64,000 nt of DNA from a virus, in IMG/VR virus record IMGVR_UViG_3300042691_055965, positions 124,001 to 188,000 of that record. The stretch is one strand, 5' to 3'. The translations under genes and the position numbers were made by a program. Every line of letters starts with the position of its first letter. Within the stretch, counting starts at the first letter, position 1. The notes under the pieces are model-generated. The model was not told where the DNA came from. It did no database searches and was given only the letters and a program-made list of their open reading frames with translations. Below, piece after piece: positions 31,961 through 61,573 of this stretch.

Positions 31961-33802
31961 ATGGCTAATAGAAAAATATCATATACTGAAAGGGACTTTG
32001 AAGGATTAAGAAATGATCTGATTGACTATACAAGACAATATTATCCCGATTTAATTCAAAACTTTAACGATGCATCGGTTTTTTCTGTTTTGATGGACTT
32101 AAATGCTGCGATTGGTGATAATTTAAATTTTCACATTGATAGAAGTTTACAAGAAACAATATTACAATATGCGCAACAAAGATCATCAATTTTCAACATT
32201 GCAAGAACTTACGGATTAAAAGTTCCGGGGTTTCGTCCATCAGTTGCTGTTGTTGACATTTCAATTACAGTGGATGCTTTTGGGGATGCGGAAGATGTGA
32301 GATATTTGGGTATATTAAGGGCAGGTGCACAGTTTAATGGTGGTGGAACAACATTTGAAACTGTTTATGATATTGATTTTTCTTCACAATTTAATAGGGA
32401 AGGGTTTATAAACAGAACAAAAGTTCCAGTATTTTCAAGTAACAACAATTCTGTAGGAAGTTATATTATTACAAAAAGAGAAGTTGTTGTTAATGGAACC
32501 ACACAAGTGTTCAAAAAAGTAATCAATCCACAAGATGTAATACCATTTTATAATTTCTTTTTACCTGATAAGAATGTTTTGGGTGTAACATCGATAATTC
32601 AAAAAGAAGGTACAACATATCAAGCAACACCGTCCTTTTCAGAATTTGCAACATCAACAAACAGATGGTATGAAGTAGATGCATTGGTTGAAGATACCGT
32701 TTTTATTGAAGATCCAACAAAACCTGTGGATGAAGCGGGAGTTAAAGTTGGTAGGTACATAAAAACAGATAACAGATTCATAACTGAATACACACCTGAA
32801 GGTTTTTTAAAAGTACAATTTGGTGGAGGTACTGTAACACCTGATGAACAATTAAGACAATTTACAACGACTGGAGTACCATTAAAGTTACAGAACTTCC
32901 AAAATAATATTGGACTTGGTTTAACAGTAAAACCAAATACAACACTTTTTGTTCAATATAGAACAGGTGGTGGATTGTCAAGTAATATTGGTGTAGGAGC
33001 AATAAATCAAGTTGCACTTGCTGATTTTGTGGTGAACGGACCTTCAGAAATTACTAACAATAATGTAATACAATCATTGAAAGTTAATAACATTACTGCT
33101 GCTATAGGTGGTGCAAATCAACCTTCAGTTGAAGAAGTAAGAAATATGGTGACGTATAACTTTGCAGCACAAAAAAGAGCAGTTACAATAAATGATTATA
33201 AGTCGTTGATTGATACAATGCCTGGTAATTTTGGTGCACCTGCTAAAGTTGCAATATCAGAATCTAATAACAAAATTTCAGTTAAAATCCTGTCTTATGA
33301 TAGTACGGGGGTATTAACACAAACGGTATCTAATAATTTGAAAACAAATTTGGCAACATATCTTTCTAAATATAGAATGATAAATGACTACATTTCAATT
33401 GAAGTTGCAAAAGTAATTGATTTGGAGTTTGAGTTTTATATTGTTCTTGATAACCCAGGTGCTCAAGGTGACGTAATAACACAAGTCATCAATACAGTAA
33501 GTAATTATATGTTACCTTCAACTAGAGAACTTGGACAAAATGTTAATGTATCGGAAGTTAGACAACTTGTTCAAAACATTTCTGGAGTTAATGCTCTTAC
33601 AGATTTGAAAATATATAATAAAGTTGGTGGACAGTATTCATCATCTGAAACATCACAAAGATACGTTTCGGTAACGACAAAAGAAATTGAACTTATTGAT
33701 AGTACAATATTTGCTGAACCTGATCAAATATATCAAATTCGATTCCCAAATAGGGATATAAAGGTTAGAGTTAAAAACCTTTCAACGGTAGACTTTTCAT
33801 AA
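31961..33802 (+). CDS. Baseplate wedge protein, gp6-like (baseplate J family)
   Basis: A 613-aa wedge protein; T4 gp6 has 660 residues and forms the inner iris ring of the baseplate. The N-terminus ISYTERDFEGLRNDLIDYTR followed by NDASVFSVLMDLNAAIGDNL is the typical start of gp6/J proteins. The C-terminal half contains RAVTINDYKSLIDTMPG, another family hallmark, and VSEVRQLVQNISGVN near the end. Coupled to the gp25-like gene (4-nt gap). No unusual insertions. Confidence 0.9.
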   Translation: MANRKISYTERDFEGLRNDLIDYTRQYYPDLIQNFNDASVFSVLMDLNAAIGDNLNFHIDRSLQETILQYAQQRSSIFNIARTYGLKVPGFRPSVAVVDISITVDAFGDAEDVRYLGILRAGAQFNGGGTTFETVYDIDFSSQFNREGFINRTKVPVFSSNNNSVGSYIITKREVVVNGTTQVFKKVINPQDVIPFYNFFLPDKNVLGVTSIIQKEGTTYQATPSFSEFATSTNRWYEVDALVEDTVFIEDPTKPVDEAGVKVGRYIKTDNRFITEYTPEGFLKVQFGGGTVTPDEQLRQFTTTGVPLKLQNFQNNIGLGLTVKPNTTLFVQYRTGGGLSSNIGVGAINQVALADFVVNGPSEITNNNVIQSLKVNNITAAIGGANQPSVEEVRNMVTYNFAAQKRAVTINDYKSLIDTMPGNFGAPAKVAISESNNKISVKILSYDSTGVLTQTVSNNLKTNLATYLSKYRMINDYISIEVAKVIDLEFEFYIVLDNPGAQGDVITQVINTVSNYMLPSTRELGQNVNVSEVRQLVQNISGVNALTDLKIYNKVGGQYSSSETSQRYVSVTTKEIELIDSTIFAEPDQIYQIRFPNRDIKVRVKNLSTVDFS

Positions 33803-44779: not shown

Positions 44780-47760
44780 TGGCTCAAAATAAATTCATAT
44801 GTCCAAAACCCGCACCAGTTGGTTCAGGAACTTTTTCTGATGATTTAGTTGGATTTCAAGTGGTTGCTGGTGGAGGGTTGACGCAAGGAAACTTTCAGTA
44901 TACTACGGCAGTTTTTGACAAGGTTAATCGAAGTTTTGGGACTGGAATTTTTTCAGAACCGTTCAACTTAGAAAACCTGAACATAGGGACAATAGAAGAA
45001 ACGAAGTTATTAATAAAAAAAAATTTTAGTGTTTATCCTAACTTTGATTTATCACAAATAACAAGTTTTTCTTTATATGGTTCACTTCAAAAAAGAATTT
45101 CAGCATCGGTAACAAAAATAATTAATTTTTTTCCTGCAGCAATTCAAATCGATCAACAAAACTATAGTTTAAATACTGGTTACACCGCTTTTAATATAGT
45201 TTATGATGGGGTAGCAGATGAAACGTCATTTGAAGTTGACGTACAGTTTTTTAAAAATCCATTCGATATTGATTACAGTATAAACGCTGCACAAAATATA
45301 TCCACAAGACCTTTTAAAATTAGTGATTTTAGAAACCTTACAAAAAACTACGAAGGGTATTCATTATACACTACAGATTTAACAACAGAATATCAAATTT
45401 TAGATTTTGTTCCAACACAAACATTAACTGCTGGAACAATTCCTATTATTGTTAAGGGTAAACCATTTTCATCAACAACCACAACCCAAACGTTAATATT
45501 GAAACCAAATAACTTGAACACTGAAAAAATATTTCAAGATGCGTTTGATGAAGTTGAAGATTATTTGTTAAATAGGAATGGGTTTCCTAAATATAGTGCG
45601 AAATTCAAATATCCTGACTACGATAGTAATGGGAACTATATTATGATTAATAATATTGTTACATGGAAGTTAGATGGTGTTTGGAACTTGGATATTGTCA
45701 CATCGAATTTTGACAATTATTTAACAACACTTCAAGATATTTCAGAAAGGTTAGATCAGTTTAAAACCAATTTGATAAGTAGGTTTTTAACTTCAGGTAG
45801 TTTGAAAGAATTTGATACTCCCGATCAAAGATTGGAAAAAGTCCTTCAAATTTATGGTAGAAGTTTTGATGAAACAAAAAAGTTTATTGATTCTTTAAGT
45901 AATATTACATCAGTAAATTATATTGTTGGAAACGATATTCCATCACAATTGTTAAGTAATTTAGCGAAAACATTAGGATGGAACACCGACATTTCACCAA
46001 TAACTAATGAAAAGTTATTGGAGTCAATTTTTACAACAACAAATGATGTAATTTATCCTGGACAATCTAAAGAACAAACACCCGCAGAATTAAATTATCA
46101 GTATTATAGAAACTTAATTTTAAATTCTGCTTTTTTATTCAAATCTAAAGGAACGAGAAAATCAATTGAATACATTCTAAGGATGGTAGGTGCGCCTGAA
46201 GCATTAATTGAATTCAATGAATATATTTACATTGCTGATCAGAAAATTTCAACGGATGAATTTTTCGAAGAATACATTACAATATCGGGTGGTACTAAAT
46301 ATGTTGAAACACCTGCACTTTTATCAAATAATACTTTTAAAATATGGGGAGTTCAATATACTGCATTTACAACAAATGGGCAAATTTTCAATGTAAATAC
46401 AGATTTACCTGACTACCCAATAGATACTGATACTGGTTTCCCTCAAAGAGCTGTTTACACTGATGATTATTTCTTTCAAAAAGGGTCAGGGTGGTTTGAA
46501 GTGACACCTGAACACCGTTCACCTGAAGAAATAAGTTATTCTACATCTGATTTAAATTCACAAATACCTGTCATAAATTCTGTCCTTACACCATTTACCT
46601 ATGGAAAAGAATATTTAGATAGGTATCGGTCTTTTCCATTTATGGATTTAGGATTCAACATTACAAAAGTAATTGATAACAAGAAAAGTTGGGTAACAAA
46701 TCAAGTTGGTTTACGAAAAAATCTTCAAGATTTAGCGGCTACAAATTATATAATTGAAGATGATAGACTTGCAATAAATGTTAAAAACATGGAAGTTTAT
46801 TTGAATATGGGACAAGGTATAACGTATGACATTTGGAATATGTCTTCCACATATGGTTATCCAATACCAAACAGTGGGTTTACTTCACCATATCCATCAC
46901 CAGGAAATATCGATTGGACATACATTGATCCTAAACCGAATCAAAAAACATTTTTTGAATTTGCTCAAAATTTCTTTAATAATTTCATTAATGTAAGAAA
47001 TAGACAATATATATCCGATGGTAAAACAGGCGGATACCCAACACTACAGTCAATATTTTGGAAATACATCAACAGTGATCAGTCGTTGAATATTCCAAAC
47101 AACGAATTCACATATCAAAAAATGATTGATTTTACTTTGAGTTTGGGTGACTATTGGGTTAGATTAGTTGAACAATTTGTTCCGGCAACCACTTTGTGGA
47201 ATACTGGACAAAAAATGGATAACTCTATTTTTCACAGACAAAAATATGTTTGGAGACGACAAAGAGGGTGTACCGTCACACCTCTTGTTGTTCCATGTTT
47301 TCCATGTACATATAATGGTGAACCATACACATATGATTGCATCGATCAAACTACTACTTGTGAATTACCATTATTCGATCCAATAGACGTGTTGACAGAA
47401 AGTACTTTACAAGTTACCAATAATCTAACAAATTGTAATTTCAATAACTTGGAATCCAATTGGTATGTTATAGTATCATTAACGAATTTGGTTACTAATC
47501 AAGAAGATATTTTAATTAATGAATATTTTTATACAGGATATGGTCCGAATGCTATAGATAATATAAACGGTAACCCATTGACATACTTTGATGTTATAAA
47601 TGCAATAGACAATAAACTACAGTATTTATATCAATACGGATTGAATTACTATTTTAGTGGTGGTTCACTAATAATTAGTAATTCTTCTTGTTATGCGGAT
47701 TTCACGGATAAACTACTAAATCTAAAAATAGGTTTGGACATTAATATTGTTTGTGCATAA
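44779..47760 (+). CDS. Large baseplate/tail protein, possibly P2 gpI-like in its middle part (993 aa)
   Basis: The middle section has DTPDQRLEKVLQIYGRSFDE at about residues 347-366, then a helix with LLSNLAKTLGW, and YRNLILNSAFLFKSKGTRKS plus IEYILRMVGAPEALIEF at about 443-479. This is typical of tail protein I-type baseplate wedge proteins (P2 gpI; T4 gp7 has a related role). The final 150 residues have six or more cysteines (TVTPLVVPCFPCTYNGEPYT; TTCELP) and look like an added domain connecting to the adhesin genes. TAATG junctions at both ends. Confidence 0.65.
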   Translation: MAQNKFICPKPAPVGSGTFSDDLVGFQVVAGGGLTQGNFQYTTAVFDKVNRSFGTGIFSEPFNLENLNIGTIEETKLLIKKNFSVYPNFDLSQITSFSLYGSLQKRISASVTKIINFFPAAIQIDQQNYSLNTGYTAFNIVYDGVADETSFEVDVQFFKNPFDIDYSINAAQNISTRPFKISDFRNLTKNYEGYSLYTTDLTTEYQILDFVPTQTLTAGTIPIIVKGKPFSSTTTTQTLILKPNNLNTEKIFQDAFDEVEDYLLNRNGFPKYSAKFKYPDYDSNGNYIMINNIVTWKLDGVWNLDIVTSNFDNYLTTLQDISERLDQFKTNLISRFLTSGSLKEFDTPDQRLEKVLQIYGRSFDETKKFIDSLSNITSVNYIVGNDIPSQLLSNLAKTLGWNTDISPITNEKLLESIFTTTNDVIYPGQSKEQTPAELNYQYYRNLILNSAFLFKSKGTRKSIEYILRMVGAPEALIEFNEYIYIADQKISTDEFFEEYITISGGTKYVETPALLSNNTFKIWGVQYTAFTTNGQIFNVNTDLPDYPIDTDTGFPQRAVYTDDYFFQKGSGWFEVTPEHRSPEEISYSTSDLNSQIPVINSVLTPFTYGKEYLDRYRSFPFMDLGFNITKVIDNKKSWVTNQVGLRKNLQDLAATNYIIEDDRLAINVKNMEVYLNMGQGITYDIWNMSSTYGYPIPNSGFTSPYPSPGNIDWTYIDPKPNQKTFFEFAQNFFNNFINVRNRQYISDGKTGGYPTLQSIFWKYINSDQSLNIPNNEFTYQKMIDFTLSLGDYWVRLVEQFVPATTLWNTGQKMDNSIFHRQKYVWRRQRGCTVTPLVVPCFPCTYNGEPYTYDCIDQTTTCELPLFDPIDVLTESTLQVTNNLTNCNFNNLESNWYVIVSLTNLVTNQEDILINEYFYTGYGPNAIDNINGNPLTYFDVINAIDNKLQYLYQYGLNYYFSGGSLIISNSSCYADFTDKLLNLKIGLDINIVCA

Positions 47761-50456
47761 TGGCTTGTATTTCGGGATTTACACTTGGTGGTTATTATAG
47801 TTATGTAGATTGTTGTGGTTTGGTTCAGGCGGGGGTTTCACCTGGACTTGAAAATGTTTGTGTAAGTGCATCAACTTCAGGAACATCAATTGGGGTTTTA
47901 CTTGATAGCGGTTCAACCTGTACGCAAAACTGTAATCAAGGACCTTTAAGTTATGTGTTTACTGTAACTGGGGTTTGTGGTAACCCATCAGGGACTGTAA
48001 CTATTCAATCTTTTGGTGGTATACCTCCGTATACTATTGATAATATTACTCCTGGAAGTTTATCAGCACAAACAAGTTCATCAGATATCACTTTTACTGG
48101 TTTAACAGGTGGTACTTATGTCTTTAGATTAAATGACTCATTAGGTATACAAAATAATGAAATTTTATTTAATGTAGAAATTTCTGATTGTTTTGTTGCG
48201 ACAATAAATAATACAGATGGAACAACTTGTGGTAGCCAAAATGGTAGTTTTTCTATAGATGTAACTTCTACTGCCGCACCATATAATATAGTTCTTTATA
48301 AAAATAATGCAATATTTTCGACATTTTTAACAAACACGGTTCCTTATAATGTTACATCATTAGATGAAGGAATATATTATGCAACTGTTTTTGATTATGG
48401 TATGGTAAGTGCCGTGACGGATAATGTTGTTATAAACCCAAGTAGTGGAACTACATTTGGTATATGGAAAGTTAATACATCTAACTGTGTACCTAATTCA
48501 GGAAAACTTGCGGTTACTGGATTGACAGGTAATGGACCTTATAGTTTTTTATGGTCTAATGGTGAAACAACACAAATTATTACTGGACTTACTGTCGGAA
48601 CTTACACAGTTACTGTCACTGATTTTTATGGTTGCGAAACTGTTGCGTCTGAAACGGTTGGTGTTGCTAATCCTTTAGGTGTAGGTTTAATTACTTCAGT
48701 TAACCCGTCTTGTTTTGATTCAAATGGTTCGATTACTGTTCAACTTACAGGAGGAACCGCTCCTTATACGATATCCGCTAATACAGGATATCAAACTTTT
48801 ACCTTAAGTGATACATTTACCGTACCAAATTTACCTACAGGTCCCTATAACATTTTGGTTAAAGATGCAAATCTTTGTCCTTTATTAGTAAACGCTTCTT
48901 TGACAACCGTAAATGGTTTTGACATTATAAGTACAAACATTACAAATACAACGTGTAATGGTAATGACGGTGAAGTGAATATTGTTTTAACTGGAATACC
49001 TCCATTCTTATTTCAATTAACAGCGCTTACAAACAATTCGATATCAACGCAATTTTCTTCAAATTTAAACACTACATTTAGTAATTTAAATTCGGGAAAT
49101 TATTTATTGTCCATTTCAGGGCAATCAAGTGGATGTGAATTTATACAACCAATAACTATTCAAAATCAACAGAATTTCCAAGTTACAGCAACGACAATTG
49201 ATAGTTCATGTGGAAGTGCTTCTGGATCGGTTATTATAGAAGTCGGAACAGGGTACACGTCACCTCTTGATTATTACCTTATTGACAATCAAAATACTCA
49301 ATCTATAATCGATTATCCTTTTTCATCTTTTACCTTCACATCTATTCTACCTGGAAATTATACAGTCCAAGTAGTTGATGGTAATAACTGTACCGTATCA
49401 ATTCCTGTCACAGTAGGTGCTGGTTCAAATTTTGTCAGTAACGTGATTACAACAAACTGTGTTTCAGGACAAGATGGTATTGCTCAAGTCGTCATATATG
49501 ATGGGGTGCCGCCTTTTACTTATAGTTGGCAAGGAGTATTATCCGCTCAAACAGGTTCTACTGTTACAAATTTAAGTGGTGGTACTTACACTGTTTCGGT
49601 TACAGATGCTAGTGGATGTACAAACTTTCATAATTTTACAATAGTATGTGGTTTCAATAGTTATAGTGGGTCGACAACATATCTTATATGTGAAAGAGAT
49701 TTTATCACAACAAGTGGAACTAAAAGAGGAATACCGGAAATGGTAAGTGAAGGTTTCTTGGATTTAACGACAGGGTACACTAATTGTATTTTAAATTCAG
49801 CGTCCGTGACTTGTCAAATTACATTGAACGGAAGTGCGTTTACACAAACAATAGTTTTTTGGAATGACGCATCATGGCAAAGTGCAATAGAAACAATATT
49901 AGGTAGTATTCCTGAAATAGGACAGTACGAAGTTAATTTATTAAATAATACTTTATATATAGAGTCAAATTGTCAGGGAGGAATTGATCCATTAGGTGAA
50001 ACTGATTTTACATTAGAATTGGTTGTAGATTATGACATTAGTTGTGCTGAAATTGCACCTACACCGACACCTACACCTACGCCAACACCTACGCCAACAC
50101 CTACACCTACGCCAACACCTACACCAACACCTTCGCCAACGCCTACTTATACATCAACAACGTGGTATTCTAATTCTGTTGTGTTTAGTACTGCAAACGC
50201 AACAAATCATTGTTTAACATTCCCTGATGATTGTAATGTGAATTTTTATACAAGTTCAGTGAGTTTAAATGTTGGTGATATTTTATATGATGATCCATTA
50301 CTGACTAATGATTCTGGAAATGTTGCGGTAAATTATGGACCATTTGGTGGTGGTTGGGGATGGATATATCTAACAGATACCTGTCCTATATCAAGTACAA
50401 TTTACCTCGTACAATTAAGAAGTAATGGTGAAATATTAGACATACAAACTTGTTAA
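47760..50456 (+). CDS. SprB-repeat adhesin-like tail protein with Pro-Thr linker
   Basis: About 898 aa from ATG 47760 (TAATG overlap; a TTG 9 nt upstream is less likely). It carries about seven SprB-type beta repeats, e.g. LTGNGPYSFLWSNGETTQII followed by GLTVGTYTVTVTDFYGC; the (G)-x-x-PY-x-x-x-W and GTYTVTVTDA-x-GC motifs recur. SprB repeats are known from Bacteroidota gliding adhesins. Near residues 767-796 is a 30-residue Pro-Thr linker. The C-terminal domain (about 100 residues) with LNVGDILYDDPLLT and LRSNGEILDIQTC matches the end of the protein at 55217. It is probably a distal tail adhesin or fibre. Confidence 0.75.
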   Translation: MACISGFTLGGYYSYVDCCGLVQAGVSPGLENVCVSASTSGTSIGVLLDSGSTCTQNCNQGPLSYVFTVTGVCGNPSGTVTIQSFGGIPPYTIDNITPGSLSAQTSSSDITFTGLTGGTYVFRLNDSLGIQNNEILFNVEISDCFVATINNTDGTTCGSQNGSFSIDVTSTAAPYNIVLYKNNAIFSTFLTNTVPYNVTSLDEGIYYATVFDYGMVSAVTDNVVINPSSGTTFGIWKVNTSNCVPNSGKLAVTGLTGNGPYSFLWSNGETTQIITGLTVGTYTVTVTDFYGCETVASETVGVANPLGVGLITSVNPSCFDSNGSITVQLTGGTAPYTISANTGYQTFTLSDTFTVPNLPTGPYNILVKDANLCPLLVNASLTTVNGFDIISTNITNTTCNGNDGEVNIVLTGIPPFLFQLTALTNNSISTQFSSNLNTTFSNLNSGNYLLSISGQSSGCEFIQPITIQNQQNFQVTATTIDSSCGSASGSVIIEVGTGYTSPLDYYLIDNQNTQSIIDYPFSSFTFTSILPGNYTVQVVDGNNCTVSIPVTVGAGSNFVSNVITTNCVSGQDGIAQVVIYDGVPPFTYSWQGVLSAQTGSTVTNLSGGTYTVSVTDASGCTNFHNFTIVCGFNSYSGSTTYLICERDFITTSGTKRGIPEMVSEGFLDLTTGYTNCILNSASVTCQITLNGSAFTQTIVFWNDASWQSAIETILGSIPEIGQYEVNLLNNTLYIESNCQGGIDPLGETDFTLELVVDYDISCAEIAPTPTPTPTPTPTPTPTPTPTPTPTPSPTPTYTSTTWYSNSVVFSTANATNHCLTFPDDCNVNFYTSSVSLNVGDILYDDPLLTNDSGNVAVNYGPFGGGWGWIYLTDTCPISSTIYLVQLRSNGEILDIQTC
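50058..50147 (+). repeat. Pro-Thr codon repeat (30 residues)
   Basis: Alternating CCN ACN codons, with Ser replacing one Thr near the end. Same type as the four tracts in the gene at 55217. Confidence 0.9.
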
Positions 50457-50457
50457 G

Positions 50458-50745
50458 ATGCCATATTCTATAGACATAACTTCTATGAGTGGTGGGTCAG
50501 CACCTGTCAGTTATTTCATTTGTGATGAAAATGGTAATAATTGTTCTTTTCTAGGTAATACTACAGGTGTTTATATATTACCCGCATTCTATCAACCTGC
50601 AACGACATTAATTGTTCAAGCAATAGACGGTAATAGTTGTTTATTATTTCAAGTAATAGTTTGTGCAGGACCTGAAACATTTTTACTTACAACTGAAGAT
50701 GGTTTTGTTCTTACAACAGAAGACGGTGACGGAATTTTATTCTAA
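50458..50745 (+). CDS. Small Cys-containing adhesin-cassette protein (95 aa)
   Basis: Starts 1 nt after the adhesin stop codon. The pattern SYFICDENGNNCSFLG, then VQAIDGNSCLLFQVIVC resembles the two other small proteins at 50767 and 56847 (xYICDxxxxxC, VKxID-x-x-GC). The C-terminus has a repeated TFLLTTEDGF / FVLTTEDGDG. It is probably a structural decoration of the tail fibre; the function is unknown. The three small paralogues indicate local duplication. Confidence 0.65.
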   Translation: MPYSIDITSMSGGSAPVSYFICDENGNNCSFLGNTTGVYILPAFYQPATTLIVQAIDGNSCLLFQVIVCAGPETFLLTTEDGFVLTTEDGDGILF

Positions 50746-50754
50746 ATTTTATCA

Positions 50755-50762
50755 TATTTATA
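50755..50762 (+). promoter_or_regulatory. TATTTATA box before the 94-aa gene
   Basis: TATTTATA 4 nt before the ATG at 50767. Confidence 0.4.
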
Positions 50763-50766
50763 TTAT

Positions 50767-51051
50767 ATGATAATTCAAATCACAGGAGTAACAAGTGGAA
50801 CGTCGCCTTATGATGTCTACATTTGTGATCCAACAAATACAGGGTGTTTTTTGGTATCAGGGAGTACAGCGATACCACCAACTGTAACTATTGATAGTGA
50901 TTTATTTTTTCCTTATGAAAATATTGTCTATGTCAAGTTGATTGATGTTTTTGGTTGCACGTTAACAGAAACGGTTGTTTGTGGTGGAAAAATTTTCCAA
51001 GACGATTTTGGTTTTGCATTTATGGATGATACTTATTTTGTGTTTCAATAA
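50767..51051 (+). CDS. Small adhesin-cassette protein with FxFQ end, copy 1 (94 aa)
   Basis: Begins MIIQITGVTSGTSPYDVYIC and contains YVKLIDVFGC and VVCGGKIFQDDF, ending AFMDDTYFVFQ. The protein at 56847 has the same plan: VWVCNDC, IKFIDSLGCEVC, then FIFMDGTTYEFQ. The SGTSPYDVYIC segment also resembles half of an SprB-type unit. It precedes a gene with the IHIV-x-x-ND N-terminus, exactly as in the second copy. Function unknown; probably a small virion adaptor. Confidence 0.7.
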   Translation: MIIQITGVTSGTSPYDVYICDPTNTGCFLVSGSTAIPPTVTIDSDLFFPYENIVYVKLIDVFGCTLTETVVCGGKIFQDDFGFAFMDDTYFVFQ

Positions 51052-51064
51052 ACTATTTTGATAC

Positions 51065-51072
51065 TATTTATA
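51065..51072 (+). promoter_or_regulatory. TATTTATA box before the 337-aa gene
   Basis: TATTTATA 7 nt before the ATG at 51080. Confidence 0.45.
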
Positions 51073-51079
51073 AAATAAA

Positions 51080-52093
51080 ATGCCAATAACTTATCAATAT
51101 TTAACCGATAGAACTTTTGCACCATCAAGTGCAATTACACCTAATGCGTTAATTCATATTGTAGATCCTAATGACATTTCACAAAACCCAGACGGTTCGT
51201 CATATAAAGTAGAATTAACAAATTTAACATCCATATTTGGTTCAAGTGGTGACACATTCGTAACAGGTGGAACATATTCTGCAGGAACTGCAACATTCAC
51301 AAATAATACTGGAGGAACATTCAATGTAACAGGATTTACGTTGGCATCAACTGGTGGTACAAATATTAATACAATTATAAGTGGTTCTACTACTGTTATT
51401 AATTTGAATAATACCATAAATTTAACGGGAGTTACCGCAACTACAATAAGTGCAACAACATATCAAAATTTACCTGGTAGTTCATCGGCAAATTGTATAA
51501 CTGAACTTTTTGTGGGTAGAATAAAACCATGTACAACAACTTTCACTGTAAGTGGTGTTACAGTACTTACAAATAGTCCGGGTAAAAATCCTCTGAAAGT
51601 AGTTGCTTCTGGAAATAGTACTAGTGAACCTATTATGAGTGTTTCAGGAAGTAGTGGTGACTTATTTTCAGTAAAAGATAGTTTGACGGGAAATTTGTTT
51701 TCAGTAAACAACATTTCAGGAATCCCTATTATGGAAGTTTATGATAATAATAAAATGAAGTTGGGTTCATTTTCTTCACCAGCATCATATACTACAGTGA
51801 AATTTTTACCAACAACAGGTTTAACTGATGTCTTTTCTATTGATATTAGTGGAAATACGGGGGCGTGGTTTGACTATACTGTTGTAAATGCAATAACACC
51901 AAGTGCCAGGGCGGGACAAATTATGGCAATTTTTAGTGCAAATACAGTAAACTATGTAGAATCAACAACAAGTAGTATTGGAGTTACATCGGCAATTACT
52001 TTGAGTTTGTCTGCAAATTCAACAAACTGTATATTACAAACATCGGCAACCACTTTGGGGTGGGAAGTCAAAACAATAATAAGAAGTATTTAA
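51080..52093 (+). CDS. Tail fibre-like protein with IHIVDPND N-terminus, copy 1 (337 aa)
   Basis: The N-terminal segment ALIHIVDPNDISQNPDGSSY (residues about 24-43) is shared with the protein at 57167 (SLIHIVNTNDVTQNSAGSSY), which suggests a common attachment domain. The middle is Thr/Ser/Gly/Asn-rich and low in charge, with repeated NTTGG- and TT(V/I)-type strands, typical of fibrous beta structures. The C-terminal 100 residues (SARAGQIMAIFSANTVNYVE) look like a fibre-head domain. It is probably a tail fibre subunit; receptor binding is inference. Confidence 0.65.
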   Translation: MPITYQYLTDRTFAPSSAITPNALIHIVDPNDISQNPDGSSYKVELTNLTSIFGSSGDTFVTGGTYSAGTATFTNNTGGTFNVTGFTLASTGGTNINTIISGSTTVINLNNTINLTGVTATTISATTYQNLPGSSSANCITELFVGRIKPCTTTFTVSGVTVLTNSPGKNPLKVVASGNSTSEPIMSVSGSSGDLFSVKDSLTGNLFSVNNISGIPIMEVYDNNKMKLGSFSSPASYTTVKFLPTTGLTDVFSIDISGNTGAWFDYTVVNAITPSARAGQIMAIFSANTVNYVESTTSSIGVTSAITLSLSANSTNCILQTSATTLGWEVKTIIRSI

Positions 52094-52102
52094 TTTTGAA
52101 TT

Positions 52103-52369
52103 ATGGACATTTTTGAAAACAGAAGATATATGATTATAAACTATAGTGAAATCGATAGTGTAGATTTTAGTCAAATATTTCAAACTTACAAAGACGAATT
52201 AAGACTATCGTTAGATGGTACAAAAACTGTAATTAAATGGGACGGGGACACACCAAGTTCAGTTGAATCATTGATATATAAAGACGGACCATATACCCAC
52301 AAAGATATTGTTACGATTATGGTTAGTGATGAATGGACTGATAACTCCGAAACCCCAAGAATTAGGTAA
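52103..52369 (+). CDS. Hypothetical protein (88 aa)
   Basis: Lies 9 nt after the fibre-like gene. The protein has YMIINYSEIDSVDFSQIFQT and a C-terminal EWTDNSETPRIR. It has charged, mixed alpha/beta composition, unlike its Thr-rich neighbours. I recall similar short ORFs next to fibre genes in T4-like phages but cannot name a family. It may be a fibre chaperone; this is only inference from position. Confidence 0.6.
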   Translation: MDIFENRRYMIINYSEIDSVDFSQIFQTYKDELRLSLDGTKTVIKWDGDTPSSVESLIYKDGPYTHKDIVTIMVSDEWTDNSETPRIR

Positions 52370-52380
52370 TATTTAAGAAA

Positions 52381-53115
52381 ATGATAAAAGTAGGAGCAAA
52401 AGAAATAGTAAAAGAAGGATTGGTATGTTTTATGGATCCTGCAAACACGAGTTCATATCAACCAAGTGGTACAACATATTATGATTTGTCTAGTTTTGCT
52501 GCAAAAGCCGTTTTTCAAAATTTTGATACAAATAATAACTTCGATCCGAGTGACGGTGGTGGTAGTATAATTTTTGATGGTGTAGATGATAGTATTCGTG
52601 TTTTTACATATGGTAGTGTAGGTATTACTAATAGTGCTGAAACTGACTCCTATTTATTTACTGATGAAGTAACATTAGAGGCGTTTGTAAAACCAACATC
52701 GTTTACTAGTCAACCTAACATAATAGGTAAAGGTACAAATTTAGGATATAGATGTAGATTTACGTCTGATCAAAGATTTTGGTTATATTCTTCTAGTGGT
52801 GCTAGTATTAATAACATTCAAACCGCATCCAATTTGATAAACCCAAATGAATGGGTTCATGTTGTTGCGGTTTTTAGTCAGTCGGGTCTTTTTGCTTATG
52901 TAAATGGAGTGCTGCAGGCATCAAATTCACAACCATTTTTACCCGACATATTAAACCCAACGAGTATAGCTTGTGTATTACATTTTGGTAGATTTTGTAG
53001 TTCTGGTGAACTATTTGAAGGTAAAATGGGTATTATAAGGGTTTACCATGCGGCTCTTTCCGCTGATCAAGTACTATCAAACTTCAATGCTGATAGGGAT
53101 AGATACGGAATATAA
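52381..53115 (+). CDS. LamG/concanavalin-like lectin domain protein (244 aa)
   Basis: A single jelly-roll domain of the LamG/Laminin_G_3 type. Seen: GLVCFMDPANTSSYQPSGTT (about residues 14-33), SIIFDGVDDSIRVF, the strand TLEAFVKPTSF, NEWVHVVAVFSQSGLFAYVN, and the closing GIIRVYHAALSADQVLSNF, which is the classic end of LamG domains. Such domains bind sugars; in phages they occur in tail fibres and receptor-binding proteins. It lies just before two glycosyltransferase genes. No signal peptide. Confidence 0.85.
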   Translation: MIKVGAKEIVKEGLVCFMDPANTSSYQPSGTTYYDLSSFAAKAVFQNFDTNNNFDPSDGGGSIIFDGVDDSIRVFTYGSVGITNSAETDSYLFTDEVTLEAFVKPTSFTSQPNIIGKGTNLGYRCRFTSDQRFWLYSSSGASINNIQTASNLINPNEWVHVVAVFSQSGLFAYVNGVLQASNSQPFLPDILNPTSIACVLHFGRFCSSGELFEGKMGIIRVYHAALSADQVLSNFNADRDRYGI

Positions 53116-53178
53116 AATTATATATTTCTTTATACAATCTAACATTTATTAATTTTTCTATTTTCATAACATTCTAAT

Positions 53179-54375
53179 ATGAAAATATTTGTACAAATTG
53201 CATCTTATCGTGATCCTGAACTTTTACCAACTATTAGGGATTGTATCAATAAGGCAAAATACCCTGAAAATTTAACTTTTGGTATCTGTTGGCAACGTGA
53301 CGAAACAGAAACTTTGGAAGAATTTTTAAATGATTATAGATTTAGAATATTAGATTATCATTGGAGTGAAAGTAAAGGGCTGTGTTGGGCTCGAAGTGAA
53401 ATACAAAAACTTTGGAAAGGGGAAGAATATACTCTACAATTAGATTCACATCATAGGTTTTTGAAAAATTGGGATGAAGAATTAATCGAAATGATGAACA
53501 TGACAGGTTCGAAAAAACCAATAATTTCAACATATGCTGGAATGTATCAACCATCAGACGACAAGTTATTAAATTTTGAACCTTATAAAATGGTGGCATC
53601 TAATTTCACACCAGGTGGTACTATACTTTTTAGACCTCACGCAATCCCAAACTGGGAAACATTGGAAAAACCAATACCTGCAAGATTTGTCAGTGGACAC
53701 TTTTTTTTCACAATTGGTAAACACTGTGAAGAATATAAATATGATCCAAACATATATTTTGCTGGTGATGAAATTAGTCTATCGATTCGTTCATTTACAT
53801 TAGGTTATGATTTATTTCACCCATATAAGACAATTATTTGGCACGAATACACAAGGGAAGGTAGAACAAAACACTGGTCGGATTTCAATGAGGAAAATAA
53901 AAATAAAGGTGTTGTTGAAAAACAATGGTGGGAAATGGATAATGAATCCAAAAGAAGATTGAGACATATGTTGCAAGAAGAAGATAATAATATTGATCTT
54001 GGAATTTATGGGTTAGGAAATGAAAGGACACATAAAGAATACGAAGATTATGCTGGTATAAATTTTAGACTTAAAAAACTTCACCCCGAAACGTTAAAAG
54101 GTACAAATCCACCAATTAATGATACTACAGAATGGTATTTGGAAGAAGAAAAAACATATACCTATACTTTAGAAATACCCAAAACTGAAAATTTTAAATT
54201 CATATATATTGGTATAGAAAATGAAAAAGGTGATGTTTTATACAGACAAGATTTATTAGAATATCAAAATAAATTAGACATAACAATTAAAAGTTTTTCC
54301 AAACCACACAAATGGATTTATTGGGTAAACGATATCGATGGGAATTGGATTAATAGGGTAGATACAAATTTATGA
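53179..54375 (+). CDS. Glycosyltransferase, GlcNAc-transferase-like family (398 aa)
   Basis: The start MKIFVQIASYRDPELLPTIR and YTLQLDSHHRFLKNWDEEL (Asp89-Ser90-His91 as the DxH/DxD-type metal site) match the Pfam GlcNAc family, which includes the Dictyostelium Skp1 hydroxyproline GlcNAc-transferase. FVSGHFFF and HEYTREGR further on also fit. The enzyme would transfer a sugar from a nucleotide sugar. The acceptor is unknown: fibre proteins, DNA or host glycans are all possible. About 100 C-terminal residues form an extra beta domain. It overlaps the second glycosyltransferase gene by ATGA. A 63-nt gap upstream has no clear TATTTATA box. Confidence 0.82.
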   Translation: MKIFVQIASYRDPELLPTIRDCINKAKYPENLTFGICWQRDETETLEEFLNDYRFRILDYHWSESKGLCWARSEIQKLWKGEEYTLQLDSHHRFLKNWDEELIEMMNMTGSKKPIISTYAGMYQPSDDKLLNFEPYKMVASNFTPGGTILFRPHAIPNWETLEKPIPARFVSGHFFFTIGKHCEEYKYDPNIYFAGDEISLSIRSFTLGYDLFHPYKTIIWHEYTREGRTKHWSDFNEENKNKGVVEKQWWEMDNESKRRLRHMLQEEDNNIDLGIYGLGNERTHKEYEDYAGINFRLKKLHPETLKGTNPPINDTTEWYLEEEKTYTYTLEIPKTENFKFIYIGIENEKGDVLYRQDLLEYQNKLDITIKSFSKPHKWIYWVNDIDGNWINRVDTNL

Positions 54376-55169
54376 AAATAGGAGCATTTTATCAGTCAGG
54401 ACACAAGTTAGTTGCGTGTTATAAAGCATTGGAACAATTAAGAAAAGTATATCCTAATATACCTGTTGCTTTATATGAAGACGGTTCTAAAATATTGGAA
54501 CAGGTAGCAAAAAAATTTAATTGTGATTATAAATGGATTGAACAACAAGGGACAAACCACCCTACATCTGGAAGGGTTTTTGTTAAAGAAGGTGGGCAAA
54601 TTGATTGGCTACGAAGAATCTATGATGCTTGTTTGACAACACTAAAAGATGTTGAATGGGTGGTACACTACGAAGACGACGTTTGGTGTAGGTTTGAAAT
54701 AACCAAACCACCAAAATTTGATATTTCAGGAGCCAATGGTCCATTATATACAAATGAATTATATTCATATTTAAAAAATAGATTTGATGTTTACGATGAG
54801 TCAAGACATCATTGGAGTGAAAATGGTTCTTTACAAAGTTACGGTGCCTGTGGTGGTGCTATTTTTAATAGAGAAAAATTTATCTACATATTTGAAAATA
54901 TCGACAAAGTTCCGTGGGATTATATCTATAAATTGGATACCAGACCGATTGAGTGGTGTGATGCAACGCTTTCGTTTTTATTTCAGTATTTTGGATTTAC
55001 TAGTGGGGTATGGGAAGATTGGGCACAATACGATAGTAAAAATATAGGTAATTGGTGGGATAAAAGTGGTTGGTCGGTTCCTATGGAAGAACAACCTAAT
55101 GTTGCTTTTATTCATGCGTATAAACATTATTATTGTTATAAACCTGAAGATATTGAAATAGATTTTTAA
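54372..55169 (+). CDS. Putative GT-A type glycosyltransferase (265 aa)
   Basis: ATGA overlap with the preceding glycosyltransferase gene, so both are probably made together. N-terminal MKIGAFYQSGHKLVACYKAL and ALYEDGSK are compatible with a nucleotide-sugar fold. VVHYEDDVWCRFEI holds Glu101-Asp102-Asp103, a DxD-like metal site. SYGACGGAIFNREKF and IEWCDATLSFLFQYFGF follow, as in acceptor-site regions of GT-A enzymes. I do not assign a specific family. The pairing suggests a two-step glycan built on one target. Confidence 0.7.
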   Translation: MKIGAFYQSGHKLVACYKALEQLRKVYPNIPVALYEDGSKILEQVAKKFNCDYKWIEQQGTNHPTSGRVFVKEGGQIDWLRRIYDACLTTLKDVEWVVHYEDDVWCRFEITKPPKFDISGANGPLYTNELYSYLKNRFDVYDESRHHWSENGSLQSYGACGGAIFNREKFIYIFENIDKVPWDYIYKLDTRPIEWCDATLSFLFQYFGFTSGVWEDWAQYDSKNIGNWWDKSGWSVPMEEQPNVAFIHAYKHYYCYKPEDIEIDF

Positions 55170-55197
55170 AAAAATTTATGCAAATCAGATTTTCAAT

Positions 55198-55205
55198 TAT
55201 TTATA
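55198..55205 (+). promoter_or_regulatory. TATTTATA box before the 542-aa gene
   Basis: TATTTATA 11 nt before the GTG at 55217; it supports that GTG as start codon. Confidence 0.45.
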
Positions 55206-55216
55206 TATAAAAAAGA

Positions 55217-56845
55217 GTGCCAAATTTATTATTTGAAGGTTGTTGTTACGAGGGTTATCAGTATTTCACTGATGAAGCAGCTTGGATTGCAACTGGTGGA
55301 ACCGCGACTACAGGACAAACATATCATTTTTCAGGTGACCCAATAGTTCCCGATGGTTGTTATACTATAGTATCGGCATTCACATCAGGTTTTACATCTG
55401 TATCATTTACAAATTTAGATGGTGTTTATACAACACAAACAGGATGTACCGATTCTTTGTGTTTGACAGGTGTTTGTTGTAGTAATGATGTTTGCATTAA
55501 CATTTCGGTTTCAACATATAGTGCGTATAGCGGTAATTATGTTGTTGCTGGAAGTTATAATTCTTACCCTTATTGGACAGGTGCAACACAACCTGGGTAT
55601 ATTGGGTTCAATGGTACAAATTGGTGTCTTTCTGATTCACTAACCGGAACTTGTATTTTTTATGGGTCGAACCCAACATTATCAACTTGCCCTGATTTAG
55701 ATACTTCAGTTTATAATACAGGAATTTGTCCACCTGTACCAACACCATTCGATCCGTGTGGTGCATTTGATTTTGATGTTTTAGTTGCTTGTGATATACC
55801 AACACCAACTCCAACACCAACACCGACACCAACACCTACACCGACTCCCACACCAAGTCCAACACCTAATTTATGTTCAGGATTTTCTGTGTCAATATCT
55901 TTTAGTGCTACAACACCTACACCAACACCAACACCAACACCTACACCAACGCCTACGGTTTATCCTTATCCAATAACTGGACAAAGTGTGACTTTTGTTA
56001 TTGACGAAGGTTATTTTAATTGTGTTTCAATAAAACAATTACAGGATTGTGATAATGGTGAAACATATTTAGTTGCCGATCCTTTAATTTTCCAATTATC
56101 GGCAATAACCACAGGCACTACGTTCTTGGGCGCTATAAATGGAGAATTCAAGTGTGTAACATATGTGGGTGATGTTTTGGGAAGTCCATCCGATTTGTTA
56201 ACATTTATATCACTTACATACAGTGGGGATTGTAGTTCATGTATCGCGCCAACACCAACTCCAACACCTACACCAAGCCCAACACCAACACCGACACCTA
56301 CACCGACACCTACACCGACACCAACATATAGTGCGAACACATCATTCGTGTTTACATCTTGTACATCAAATTCGATGATAATTCAAAGTTTGATTCCACC
56401 TACTAACATTTCTGTTGGTAACGTTGTAAAAAATAGTTCAGGAAATTGTTTCACTTATATTGGTTATTTTGTGAATTATACTCCACCATCTGGGTTTATT
56501 TGGTCGACTATAAATTCATTTACGGGTGTTACTGCAACAACTTACACGACTTGTTTAGAGTGTTTGACACCAACACCAACACCTACACCATTATTCAATA
56601 CATATAACGGTAAAGGTGAATTCGGAGTATCGTGTCCTGTTTGTGAATTGACAAATGGTGGTACAAATGTGACTTTCTATAGGTCTTATAGTACTTTATC
56701 TTTACAGACAGGGGATTATATTTATGAAGATACTGCACTTACCATACCTGTAATATTATCATACATTAAGTACGGTGGTAAAATATACAGTGTTGATAGT
56801 AATGGTATGATAACAGAATTTTGTATAGTAAACGGTAATTGTTAA
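55217..56845 (+). CDS. Multi-domain adhesin-like protein with four Pro-Thr linkers (542 aa, GTG start)
   Basis: Small Cys-rich beta modules are joined by four Pro-Thr linkers (residues about 195-217, 234-247, 345-370, 452-458). Modules share a C-(Y/F/V)-T-(Y/I)-x-G-type strand and a C-x-x-C(L/I) end, e.g. [12 protein letters not shown] and YTTCLECL before a linker. The C-terminal domain ([30 protein letters not shown]) matches that of the adhesin at 47760. The segment with SYPYW and NGTNWCLS resembles part of the protein at 57696. It has no ATG nearby; GTG follows the TATTTATA box. Probably a distal tail/fibre protein. Confidence 0.75.
55799..55867 (+). repeat. Pro-Thr codon repeat 1 in the 542-aa gene
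   Basis: 23 residues of alternating Pro and Thr, with Ser at one position. Confidence 0.9.
55916..55957 (+). repeat. Pro-Thr codon repeat 2 in the 542-aa gene
   Basis: 14 residues of alternating Pro and Thr. Confidence 0.9.
56249..56326 (+). repeat. Pro-Thr codon repeat 3 in the 542-aa gene
   Basis: 26 residues of alternating Pro and Thr, with Ser at one position; near-identical 6- and 12-nt units. Confidence 0.9.
56570..56590 (+). repeat. Pro-Thr codon repeat 4 in the 542-aa gene
   Basis: Seven residues of alternating Pro and Thr just before the C-terminal domain. Confidence 0.8.
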
Positions 56846-59371: not shown

Positions 59372-61573
59372 ATGTCATACATAATCAAAACAACAAGTGG
59401 TTTAATAAATACAATTCTAACAGACGCTGCTAGGAAAAAAATATCGCAAGGAAACTTTAAGATTTCTTATTTTCAAGTAGGTGATAGTGAAGTGTGTTAT
59501 GATTGTATTACAGGATTGAAACCAACCAATCTAAATGTTTTGATGCCACAATATAACGCACAAAACACAACACCGGCACCTGAAAGTAATCGTTTACAAG
59601 TAAAGTATCCACTTTACGTAGACTCTACATCAGGAAGTACTTACGGTATACCTTTTGATTCATCATTTGTTGATAACATCTATAATACTGCAGCACCAAG
59701 AGGATTTTTTAGTGGTAATGGTTTGACTTACAGTGCGTACACATCATCGGCATATACAATTACACCTAATTTTATTGTTGATAACACAACTTTAAATTCA
59801 GGGACTACTTTAGTATTGTCTGCTAACACTTTAGATGTTACCGTTTCAGGAACAGTAACTCCTGGTATGATATTAAATTTATTTACAAATAATTCTGTCA
59901 CACCATTAAGTGGAAACGCACCATTATTTACTTATGTTGTTGTTGGAATAACTGGTGATACCTATTCGGCAAACACAGTTACAGTTGAAGTTGATAGACA
60001 ATTACCTGACTTTTTGAATATGGGTTACACAGGAAATTCTATTGCCATTTTCTACCCATCTGGAATGACTGCTCTTTATGATTCCGTGACACCTGCACCT
60101 TATTGGGCTACAAATGTAATTAATTTCGAAACAAATTGTGACGTATCACAAGCTGACGTTAAAATATGGAATATGAACATTCCATGGACTGAATCGCCAG
60201 CTGGTTTATTTGTCAGTCAAAATTTGGATTACAATTCGTTCAAATCTACAGGATATACGGGTTCTAAAGAATATTTTGGTTACAATAGTGATACAGGACA
60301 AGTGGATACTGGAGGTGTTTATTTTGTGAACTCTCTTGGACAAAAAATAACGTTAAATCCATCAGATTCAAAGGCAGTTGCAATATTACACTATACAAAC
60401 CAAGCTATTGATAATTTTTATGGTGAAAAGTTCGCTCAACAAGAATATGATTCATCAAATCCGGGTGGAACAGGACAAGCAAGAAACTTTAAAATAAGTA
60501 TTCCTTGGTTGATGTGGCATAAAAATTCAAATGGCACAATTGGAGAAGAATTTTTTACTGATCCAAGTGGGTTTACTTCAATTGACTTATTTCAAGTTTA
60601 TTATATCAAATCTAAAAAAGATGCGGAATTCAACAACCCTGGTATTAGATATTACTATCTTTGGGATACACATGCTAACATCGATGGATACCCAAACAGA
60701 GTTGGTAAAGTTTTCCCTGACTTGAAAATGGTAATTTTTGATGATGATGAAATTGTTGCAGCAATGTCATATAAATCAAACAGAAGTTGGACATTACCAG
60801 CACCTAAAATAGGTACAATAATTCCAAATGCTTGTGAAGGTGTTCTTGGATTAGATGAGGGTTTATTAAGTGCTAACACACAAACCGCATTCGTTACGTA
60901 TAGATTTAATAATAGTGCTTTTACAAATTCATTACATTGTAATTATTACACTAATATTTCACCACAGTTAGTTGATCCTATTCAAACAACCTACAATATA
61001 TTTTTAAAATTTGGAAACGAATTTCCGTTTTTAGTTTCGGACGTTAGTACTATACCAACTGGATATACCGCAAATGAAATGAAAGTATTGGTACAAAAAG
61101 TGGCATCAGGTACAACAAGACCTAATCCTACACAATGGAAAGAAATTGATGTAATGTCACAACTATCGGCAACTACTAGTAACAATTTTTTAACACTATC
61201 AGGTTTGACAGGAGCAACTATACAAATTACCAAAGATATGTATGATACTGCACCAACATACAACTTGAATAACTATATTGATTTACCAACAGCGGCATTA
61301 AGTGGAATTACTCTTAATTTTGGGGGTGAATACTTTTTCTACGGTTCAATTCAAACGGATATTCAAGCAACAATATATGTGATGAATTATCTATGTAATT
61401 TGGGACAAACACAGTTTTTAAGTTCAACCAATCCGACTTGGGATGGGACACCACCGTACATCACTGAAGTTGCTCTTTACAATGAAAATAAAGAACTTAT
61501 GGTTATTTCAAAGATACAATCCCCTGAAAAAAGACAGGGAATCCAACAGTATCCAGTTAAACTTGATTTTTAA
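59372..61573 (+). CDS. Tail/baseplate structural protein with collar-fibre-like ends (733 aa)
   Basis: The N-terminus (GLINTILTDAARKKISQGNF, then ISYFQVGDSEVCYDC) is the type seen at the start of phage tail-collar or fibre-connector proteins: a helix followed by a strand ending in VGD. The C-terminus YITEVALYNENKELMVISKI plus SPEKRQGIQQYPVKLDF is a conserved closing module of such proteins. In between lies a long beta region with SIPWLMWHKNS and IRYYYLWDTHANIDGYPNRV. It is the last structural gene before RuvC. The exact T4 equivalent is uncertain. Confidence 0.65.
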   Translation: MSYIIKTTSGLINTILTDAARKKISQGNFKISYFQVGDSEVCYDCITGLKPTNLNVLMPQYNAQNTTPAPESNRLQVKYPLYVDSTSGSTYGIPFDSSFVDNIYNTAAPRGFFSGNGLTYSAYTSSAYTITPNFIVDNTTLNSGTTLVLSANTLDVTVSGTVTPGMILNLFTNNSVTPLSGNAPLFTYVVVGITGDTYSANTVTVEVDRQLPDFLNMGYTGNSIAIFYPSGMTALYDSVTPAPYWATNVINFETNCDVSQADVKIWNMNIPWTESPAGLFVSQNLDYNSFKSTGYTGSKEYFGYNSDTGQVDTGGVYFVNSLGQKITLNPSDSKAVAILHYTNQAIDNFYGEKFAQQEYDSSNPGGTGQARNFKISIPWLMWHKNSNGTIGEEFFTDPSGFTSIDLFQVYYIKSKKDAEFNNPGIRYYYLWDTHANIDGYPNRVGKVFPDLKMVIFDDDEIVAAMSYKSNRSWTLPAPKIGTIIPNACEGVLGLDEGLLSANTQTAFVTYRFNNSAFTNSLHCNYYTNISPQLVDPIQTTYNIFLKFGNEFPFLVSDVSTIPTGYTANEMKVLVQKVASGTTRPNPTQWKEIDVMSQLSATTSNNFLTLSGLTGATIQITKDMYDTAPTYNLNNYIDLPTAALSGITLNFGGEYFFYGSIQTDIQATIYVMNYLCNLGQTQFLSSTNPTWDGTPPYITEVALYNENKELMVISKIQSPEKRQGIQQYPVKLDF

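Follow-up and report, generated by a model that had tools for sequence, protein, structure and literature searches.

Glycosyltransferase genes among proline-threonine linker proteins suggest mucin-type self-glycosylation of tail fibers in a large phage

We analyzed a 64-kb stretch of DNA from a large lake-water phage (hereafter the window; bases 124001-188000 of the 229,188-bp IMG/VR virus record IMGVR_UViG_3300042691_055965, which may be incomplete) in which two overlapping glycosyltransferase (GT) genes lie between genes for tail proteins with proline-threonine (Pro-Thr) tracts. Our results indicate that this phage probably encodes a mucin-type O-glycosylation system that modifies its own tail linkers at Thr. 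The family and motif of the first enzyme, the predicted folds, the gene order, a conserved pairing with Pro-Thr genes and the replacement of one GT family by another were computed directly. Self-glycosylation of the virion, first raised in a first-pass annotation, is the best-supported reading, favored by the family and fold of the first enzyme, GT replacement beside Pro-Thr genes, relocation of GT60 genes in distant phages and the gene content of cultured isolates. As gene content the locus has the parts of a mucin-type system, namely a putative initiating transferase, extending GTs and acceptors rich in Pro, Thr and Ser, with the chemistry predicted from sequence.

The first enzyme (53179-54375, + strand), the proposed initiating enzyme, is a member of family GT60. 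It matches PF11397 ‘GlcNAc’, the family of the Skp1 N-acetylglucosamine (GlcNAc) transferase that the first-pass annotation had recognized, with E 2.1e-67 and 228.5 bits against a curated cut-off of 21, and phrog_24687 with E 4e-98. Its DxH metal/donor motif (D89-S90-H91; 53443-53451, +) is invariant in 25 homologues, as is H222 (WHEYTR) of this enzyme, a putative counterpart of the C-terminal metal-binding His of GT27 (C-His). The use of DxH in place of DxD and polypeptide Ser/Thr O-glycosylation are common to GT27 and GT60 (PMC7185993), and the protist GT60 enzymes are mucin-type pp-alphaGlcNAcTs (PMC8724618). The enzyme has no useful sequence-level relatives in the Protein Data Bank (PDB). 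The 38 best PDB fold matches of its AlphaFold2 model (mean predicted local distance difference test, pLDDT, 84.8) are all GT27 polypeptide N-acetylgalactosamine (GalNAc) transferases, with E 7.6e-10 and up and a template-modeling (TM) score of about 0.5 over the full chain. GT27 enzymes initiate mucin-type O-glycosylation. Family membership, together with this likeness of the predicted GT-A fold to GT27, points to polypeptide Ser/Thr O-glycosylation activity. The maximum 19-residue hydropathy of the two GTs is 0.56 and 0.75, and neither looks membrane-bound, in contrast to membrane seroconversion enzymes.

The second GT (54372-55169, +; 265 residues) begins at an ATGA overlapping the stop codon of the first, the two genes sharing 4 bp, in agreement with their earlier description as overlapping. 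We found no Pfam, PHROG or NCBIfam match, no useful PDB sequence match and no relatives among annotated phages. Its model (pLDDT 87.4) adopts a predicted GT-A fold whose best Foldseek matches are GT6 enzymes (E 1e-8, TM about 0.5, root-mean-square deviation about 7), and it carries an invariant DxD-like E-D-D motif (HYEDDVW; 54672-54680, +). Given this TM score and the lack of a sequence match, we claim only a GT-A fold likeness to GT6; the enzyme probably extends the first sugar. A relationship to YibB, whose genes occupy the same slot in related phages, was rejected at an hhalign probability of only 0.7%.

The proposed acceptors flank these genes. Upstream lies a 901-residue tail-module protein (47751-50456, +) with SprB (Ig-like) repeats (PF13573, E 9.8e-18) and a single long Pro-Thr linker near its C-terminus, a 30-residue tract (50058-50147, +) that we propose as an O-glycosylation site. 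The principal proposed acceptor is the downstream 542-residue tail-module protein (55217-56845, +; phrog_15511, unknown function, E 1.5e-7), which has no relatives among annotated phages and contains four Pro-Thr linkers on the + strand, of 23 residues (55799-55867), 16 residues, 15 of them strictly alternating (55910-55957), 26 residues (56249-56326) and 8 residues (56567-56590). Smaller tail genes, a LamG gene and the two GT genes fill the interval between these two open reading frames (ORFs). The earlier positions of the tracts, the LamG gene and the GT genes were all correct, as were the tract lengths of 30, 23 and 26, whereas those given as 14 and 7 are 16 and 8. Beyond these five tracts, six-frame translations revealed none of their kind in the window. 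Across the 229-kb record the degenerate (P[TS])3 DNA pattern gave 38 forward and 0 reverse matches, and the reversed-pattern control gave 0, which rules out a chance origin. The tract codons are mixed, and identical neighboring hexamers are less frequent than after shuffling (5/45 against a shuffle mean of 9.8), so the repeat looks to be kept at the protein level. The same hexamer comparison rules out fresh DNA slippage as the origin of the tracts.

The locus sits in a long series of co-directional genes in the tail module of the window (32% G+C). Its placement there, as previously supposed for the Pro-Thr proteins, is supported by the gene for a baseplate wedge subunit (31961-33802, +; phrog_219, E 6.2e-20) and by YadA-head, Peptidase_S74, collagen and SprB domains in orthologous neighbors.

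These features enable us to propose a small cytoplasmic O-glycosylation module dedicated to the phage's own tail fibers, for which we infer a polypeptide substrate, a Thr site, the kind of sugar and its length, and a biological purpose. In this model, the first enzyme would transfer a sugar to Thr of the flanking Pro-Thr linkers in alpha linkage, as GT27 and GT60 do in mucins; this sugar would be an N-acetylhexosamine drawn from a host UDP-sugar, with GlcNAc and GalNAc as the likeliest candidates. The second enzyme, which would be translated together with the first, or its replacement in other phages, would then add a second sugar. Expressed late and in the same direction as the fiber genes, the enzymes would be able to modify folding fiber proteins before assembly, and the glycosylated linkers would form stiff, extended, protease-resistant rods with a phage-specific glycan. 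Candidate purposes are stiffness, protease resistance, or a decoy or adhesive glycan.

The strongest single argument is that unrelated GT families replace one another beside the same acceptor-like Pro-Thr gene. This emerged from a set of relatives selected regardless of GTs, with a conserved tail-module gene outside the proposed system (59372-61573, +) as bait: 80 of 430 matching viral contigs were kept, giving 40 loci after 90% dereplication, of which 34 include the sequence that precedes the Pro-Thr gene. A recognized glycan gene lies no more than three ORFs upstream of that gene in 30/34 loci, which supports the link between linkers and GTs. Pfam searches of 91 ORFs in this slot returned 21 GT60, 10 YibB, 2 GT29, 1 GT9, 1 GT25 and 1 GT-D, against 0 GTs in 96 control ORFs downstream of the bait gene. 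A within-locus permutation on the close set gave 12/22 within two genes, compared with 5.8 expected (p 0.0002). GT60 occurs in the slot alone, with the second enzyme, with YibB (PF09612), or with DUF3431, two unknowns and YibB. Other slots hold GT25 and YibB (L140), GT9 and a GT1-type multidomain protein (L154/L155), a GT25-GT1-GT9 protein and a methyltransferase (L157), GT-D and PfkB (L163/L164), or DUF6625, hexapeptide and FkbM genes (L166); in L115, whose slot is truncated, the full record has GT34 and then GT60. Loci L107 and L123, which lack GT60 in the slot, have a GT29 gene on the opposite strand instead. This gene (L107:5222-5809, −; same position in L123) encodes 195 residues of the sialyltransferase family GT29 (PF00777, E 3e-22) directly upstream of the Pro-Thr fiber gene. 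That the second enzyme is exchanged in this way may point to selection in favor of a glycan that changes.

More distant phages extend the pairing. In six such records GT60 has another location in the genome, where it immediately follows a fiber gene, and in four of them (L291, L293, L294 and L296) this fiber gene contains mucin-like segments, for instance PTPTPTSSPTQTPSNTATPTTTPTNTQTP. The genes following the relocated GT60 include members of the GT25, GT10, GT7, YibB, carbamoyltransferase and FkbM families. From 80 loci of this relocated type, 92% dereplication left 27, and 80% dereplication left four lineages; a mucin-like gene lies immediately upstream of GT60 in 23/27 and 4/4, respectively, and none was found at positions +1 to +8 in the 27 loci.

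Cultured phages show a similar association. Among about 50,700 annotated phage records the first enzyme matches only XacN1, CM1 and RAS14, in which a degenerate (P[TS])3P pattern occurs 22, 14 and 14 times, respectively, over several genes. Neither GT60 nor tract-pattern matches were found in 2.25 Mb from RaK2, 121Q, SCTP-2, phiKZ, Atu_ph07 and PBECO4. CM1 and RAS14 hardly differ in size or matches and are counted as a single lineage, so this is a contrast of two lineages with six. The XacN1 GT60 (ORF334, 42% identity) is first in a cassette with a carbamoyltransferase, unknowns and YibB, and the cassette adjoins the tail gene ORF325, with a pair of Pro-Thr tracts toward the C-terminal end of its product (residues about 3090-3160); the RAS14 counterpart of ORF325 has two short ones. 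According to the published description of XacN1, the virions contain at least two glycoproteins, with the phage's own GTs suggested as the source (PMC5852040). Pro-Thr patterns are also seen elsewhere in XacN1 (AP018399), in several members of a series of paralogous hypothetical proteins of similar length (ORF232-237) and in ORF350 and ORF370, close to the tail sheath gene and to a structural gene.

Several points weigh against linker glycosylation. The glycan on any Pro-Thr tract is predicted from sequence, the likeness of the second enzyme's predicted fold to GT6 is weak at the TM score given above, and the compared loci are related, so that counts overstate independence and the statistics are inflated. 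GT60 homologues 66-80% identical to the first enzyme lie away from Pro-Thr genes in other phages (records L018, L023, L025-L027, L038, L039, L050 and others). Only 5/11 such records, most of them fragments, show a tract elsewhere, compared with 4/40 controls (p 0.015), a difference confounded by host and composition. Records G011, G014 and G017 have tracts but no GT60 was seen in them, other GT families being present instead, and the fiber beside GT60 in L290 and L292 is rich in Ser, Thr and Asn and has no Pro-Thr tract.

Among viral contigs at large, Pro-Thr linkers are commoner than GT60, which is absent from the vicinity of 111/119 random tract loci. It lies within about 9 kb in 8/119 of these contigs and in 1/119 Pro-acidic controls, a contrast to which we attach little weight because the controls have a higher G+C content. 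Around 36 random low-GC tract loci, profiling of the neighbors picked up six 2OG-Fe(II) oxygenases but, as GT-type families, just a single GT60 and a single YibB, so there is no general tie between Pro-Thr linkers and GTs in phages at large.

One rival explanation is that the enzymes do glycosylate virion proteins but the main acceptors are folded fiber, decoration or capsid domains, with the Pro-Thr tracts serving as plain flexible linkers that happen to share an exchangeable fiber island. The slot is indeed such a variable island, in which collagen, YadA, LamG and S74 genes come and go, and mycobacteriophage glycans are reported in PMC12619734 on capsid and tail-tube C-termini; the tract-free fibers of L290 and L292 and the many linkers distant from any GT60 fit as well. 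However, extended Ser/Thr/Pro-rich sequences are known targets of GT60 and GT27 enzymes, GT60 relocates along with mucin-like genes, and the six GT60-less jumbo phages compared lack such tracts altogether. We therefore regard folded-domain acceptors as unlikely.

A second explanation would direct the enzymes to the host surface, where altered lipopolysaccharide (LPS) or exopolysaccharide could exclude superinfection or prevent progeny from re-binding, the adjacency to fiber genes reflecting co-evolution of fiber and receptor. Consistent with this, the cassettes include families that typically serve in making LPS and capsule (GT25, GT9, YibB and GT10) and the fiber neighborhood evolves fast. 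Against it, GT27/GT60 chemistry is polypeptide-directed, no lipid-carrier or membrane flippase partner was recognized in the slots examined, and neither GT has the appearance of a membrane protein. Furthermore, these phages look like lytic jumbo myoviruses with the genes in the late tail module rather than among early genes, and XacN1 virions carry glycoproteins, all of which makes a host-surface target quite improbable.

The analogy with Skp1, a eukaryotic protein, raises a third route, in which linker Pro would be hydroxylated and the GT60 enzyme would glycosylate hydroxyproline. The part of the analogy that concerns the enzyme stands, since both share PF11397; the hydroxyproline that it implies is not required, and no gene matching PF13640 (2OG-Fe(II) oxygenase, prolyl-hydroxylase-like) was found in the 229-kb record, with the caveat on completeness given above. 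For this reason Thr is a likelier acceptor than hydroxyproline. Thr-directed GT60 enzymes are known, PF13640 was present in only 5/22 searched, mostly GT60-bearing records, and we consider the route very improbable for this phage, even though this oxygenase is the commonest neighbor of long tracts in other phages. In those random low-GC viral contigs (L171-L289), PF13640 is the commonest Pfam neighbor of long Pro-Thr tracts, accounting for 6/109 neighboring ORFs compared with 1/77 beside Pro-acidic tracts, and proline hydroxylation of phage linkers is possible there. Finally, glycosylation of modified bases in phage DNA, which many large phages perform and which is listed as a possible role for moraphage GTs in PMC12619734, is hardly credible here, given that no thymidylate-synthase-family (hydroxymethylase-type) gene was found in the possibly incomplete record, that the nearest folds of the first enzyme are polypeptide transferases and that the genes sit amid tail genes.

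Returning to linker glycosylation, it is conceivable that the module is one instance of a widespread phage system, in which GT60 would place the first sugar on Thr of mucin-like tail linkers, while a rapidly exchanged second set of enzymes (GT6-like, YibB, GT29, GT25, GT10, GT7, carbamoyl-, methyl- and acetyl-transferases) would provide every phage with a fiber glycan of its own. We hold this broader view tentatively, with a little less than even credence. If correct, exchange of gene cassettes would diversify the sugar coat of the virion, and bacteria may have a counterpart where GT60 loci adjoin proteins rich in Pro-Thr. Of 46 GT60 loci in bacterial genomes, 6 have a mucin-like neighbor at distance one, compared with 2.1 expected (p 0.01). 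Very long Pro-Thr or P/T/S tracts also occur in proteins encoded close to some bacterial GT60 genes (L398 and L403, from Trinickia and Paraburkholderia, and L387, L401, L419 and others), which suggests such a counterpart. More generally, our model, if true, would make mucin-type O-glycosylation a viral trait in bacteria, would provide soluble mucin-type enzymes functional in the bacterial cytoplasm, and would explain the abundance of unassigned GTs amid the tail genes of large aquatic phages.

The gene for the LamG/ConA-like lectin-domain protein (52381-53115, +; PF13385, E 1.2e-20) has an orthologue only in L091 and L092 among the first 80 relatives. It is one of several exchangeable fiber genes in the slot, and its product is probably receptor-binding rather than a part of the enzyme system. 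Promoter and terminator scans remained at shuffle level and were uninformative; with promoter-like counts at that level overall, a perfect TTGACA-16-TATAAT match occurs at 49282-49309 (+), within the SprB/Pro-Thr gene that precedes the glycan genes. Outside the window, at about 28.6-33.4 kb of G000:C1 (L569:8625-13362), there is a second Pro-Thr-tract gene of 260 residues, and one gene beyond it are three paralogues whose starts resemble, by eye, that of the LamG gene. Just upstream of the window in G000, two genes amid fiber-like genes (L570:6259-7080 and L570:7373-8251) are possible glycan-tailoring genes: by eye, the start of one looks like a sulfotransferase P-loop (PRAGSTL) and the other resembles GT9.

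Glycosylation of phage virions is already known from a few cases. In the literature that we searched, GT60, Pro-Thr linkers and exchangeable extension cassettes were not found linked, and no defined acceptor sequence class for phage virion glycosylation came up. The first enzyme resembles the GT60/GT27 O-GlcNAc/GalNAc-transferases of Dictyostelium, Trypanosoma cruzi and animals in its DxH motif, its predicted fold and its proposed Pro/Thr-rich acceptors. Unlike these eukaryotic enzymes it is phage-encoded and apparently cytoplasmic, lacks a ricin-lectin domain, has a beta-rich C-terminal domain of about 75 residues and has phage tail proteins as its putative acceptors. For the second enzyme, the nearest PDB folds are GT6 enzymes, the family of the blood-group A/B transferases and BoGT6a. 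Moraphages, jumbo phages from aquatic habitats that infect Bacteroidota, share several core GT orthogroups, for which virion glycosylation is mentioned as one option; the available part of that paper (PMC12619734) contains no link that we could find to Pro-Thr linkers or GT60. In mycobacteriophages (Freeman et al. 2023, cited in PMC12619734) phage-encoded GTs modify the virion, as we propose here, although the acceptors there are the capsid and tail-tube C-termini rather than linkers. The closest parallel is XacN1 (PMC5852040), a jumbo myovirus that infects an unrelated host, Xanthomonas, and has a GT60 homologue beside tail genes, the ORF325 tracts and virion glycoproteins of its own; glycan sites, the GT60 family and Pro-Thr tracts are not mentioned in the portion of that paper available to us. 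Set against these systems, the new elements are GT60 as the enzyme family, Pro-Thr linkers as the proposed acceptor, and hundreds of phage contigs to which the proposal may apply, the cultured phages XacN1, RAS14 and CM1 included.

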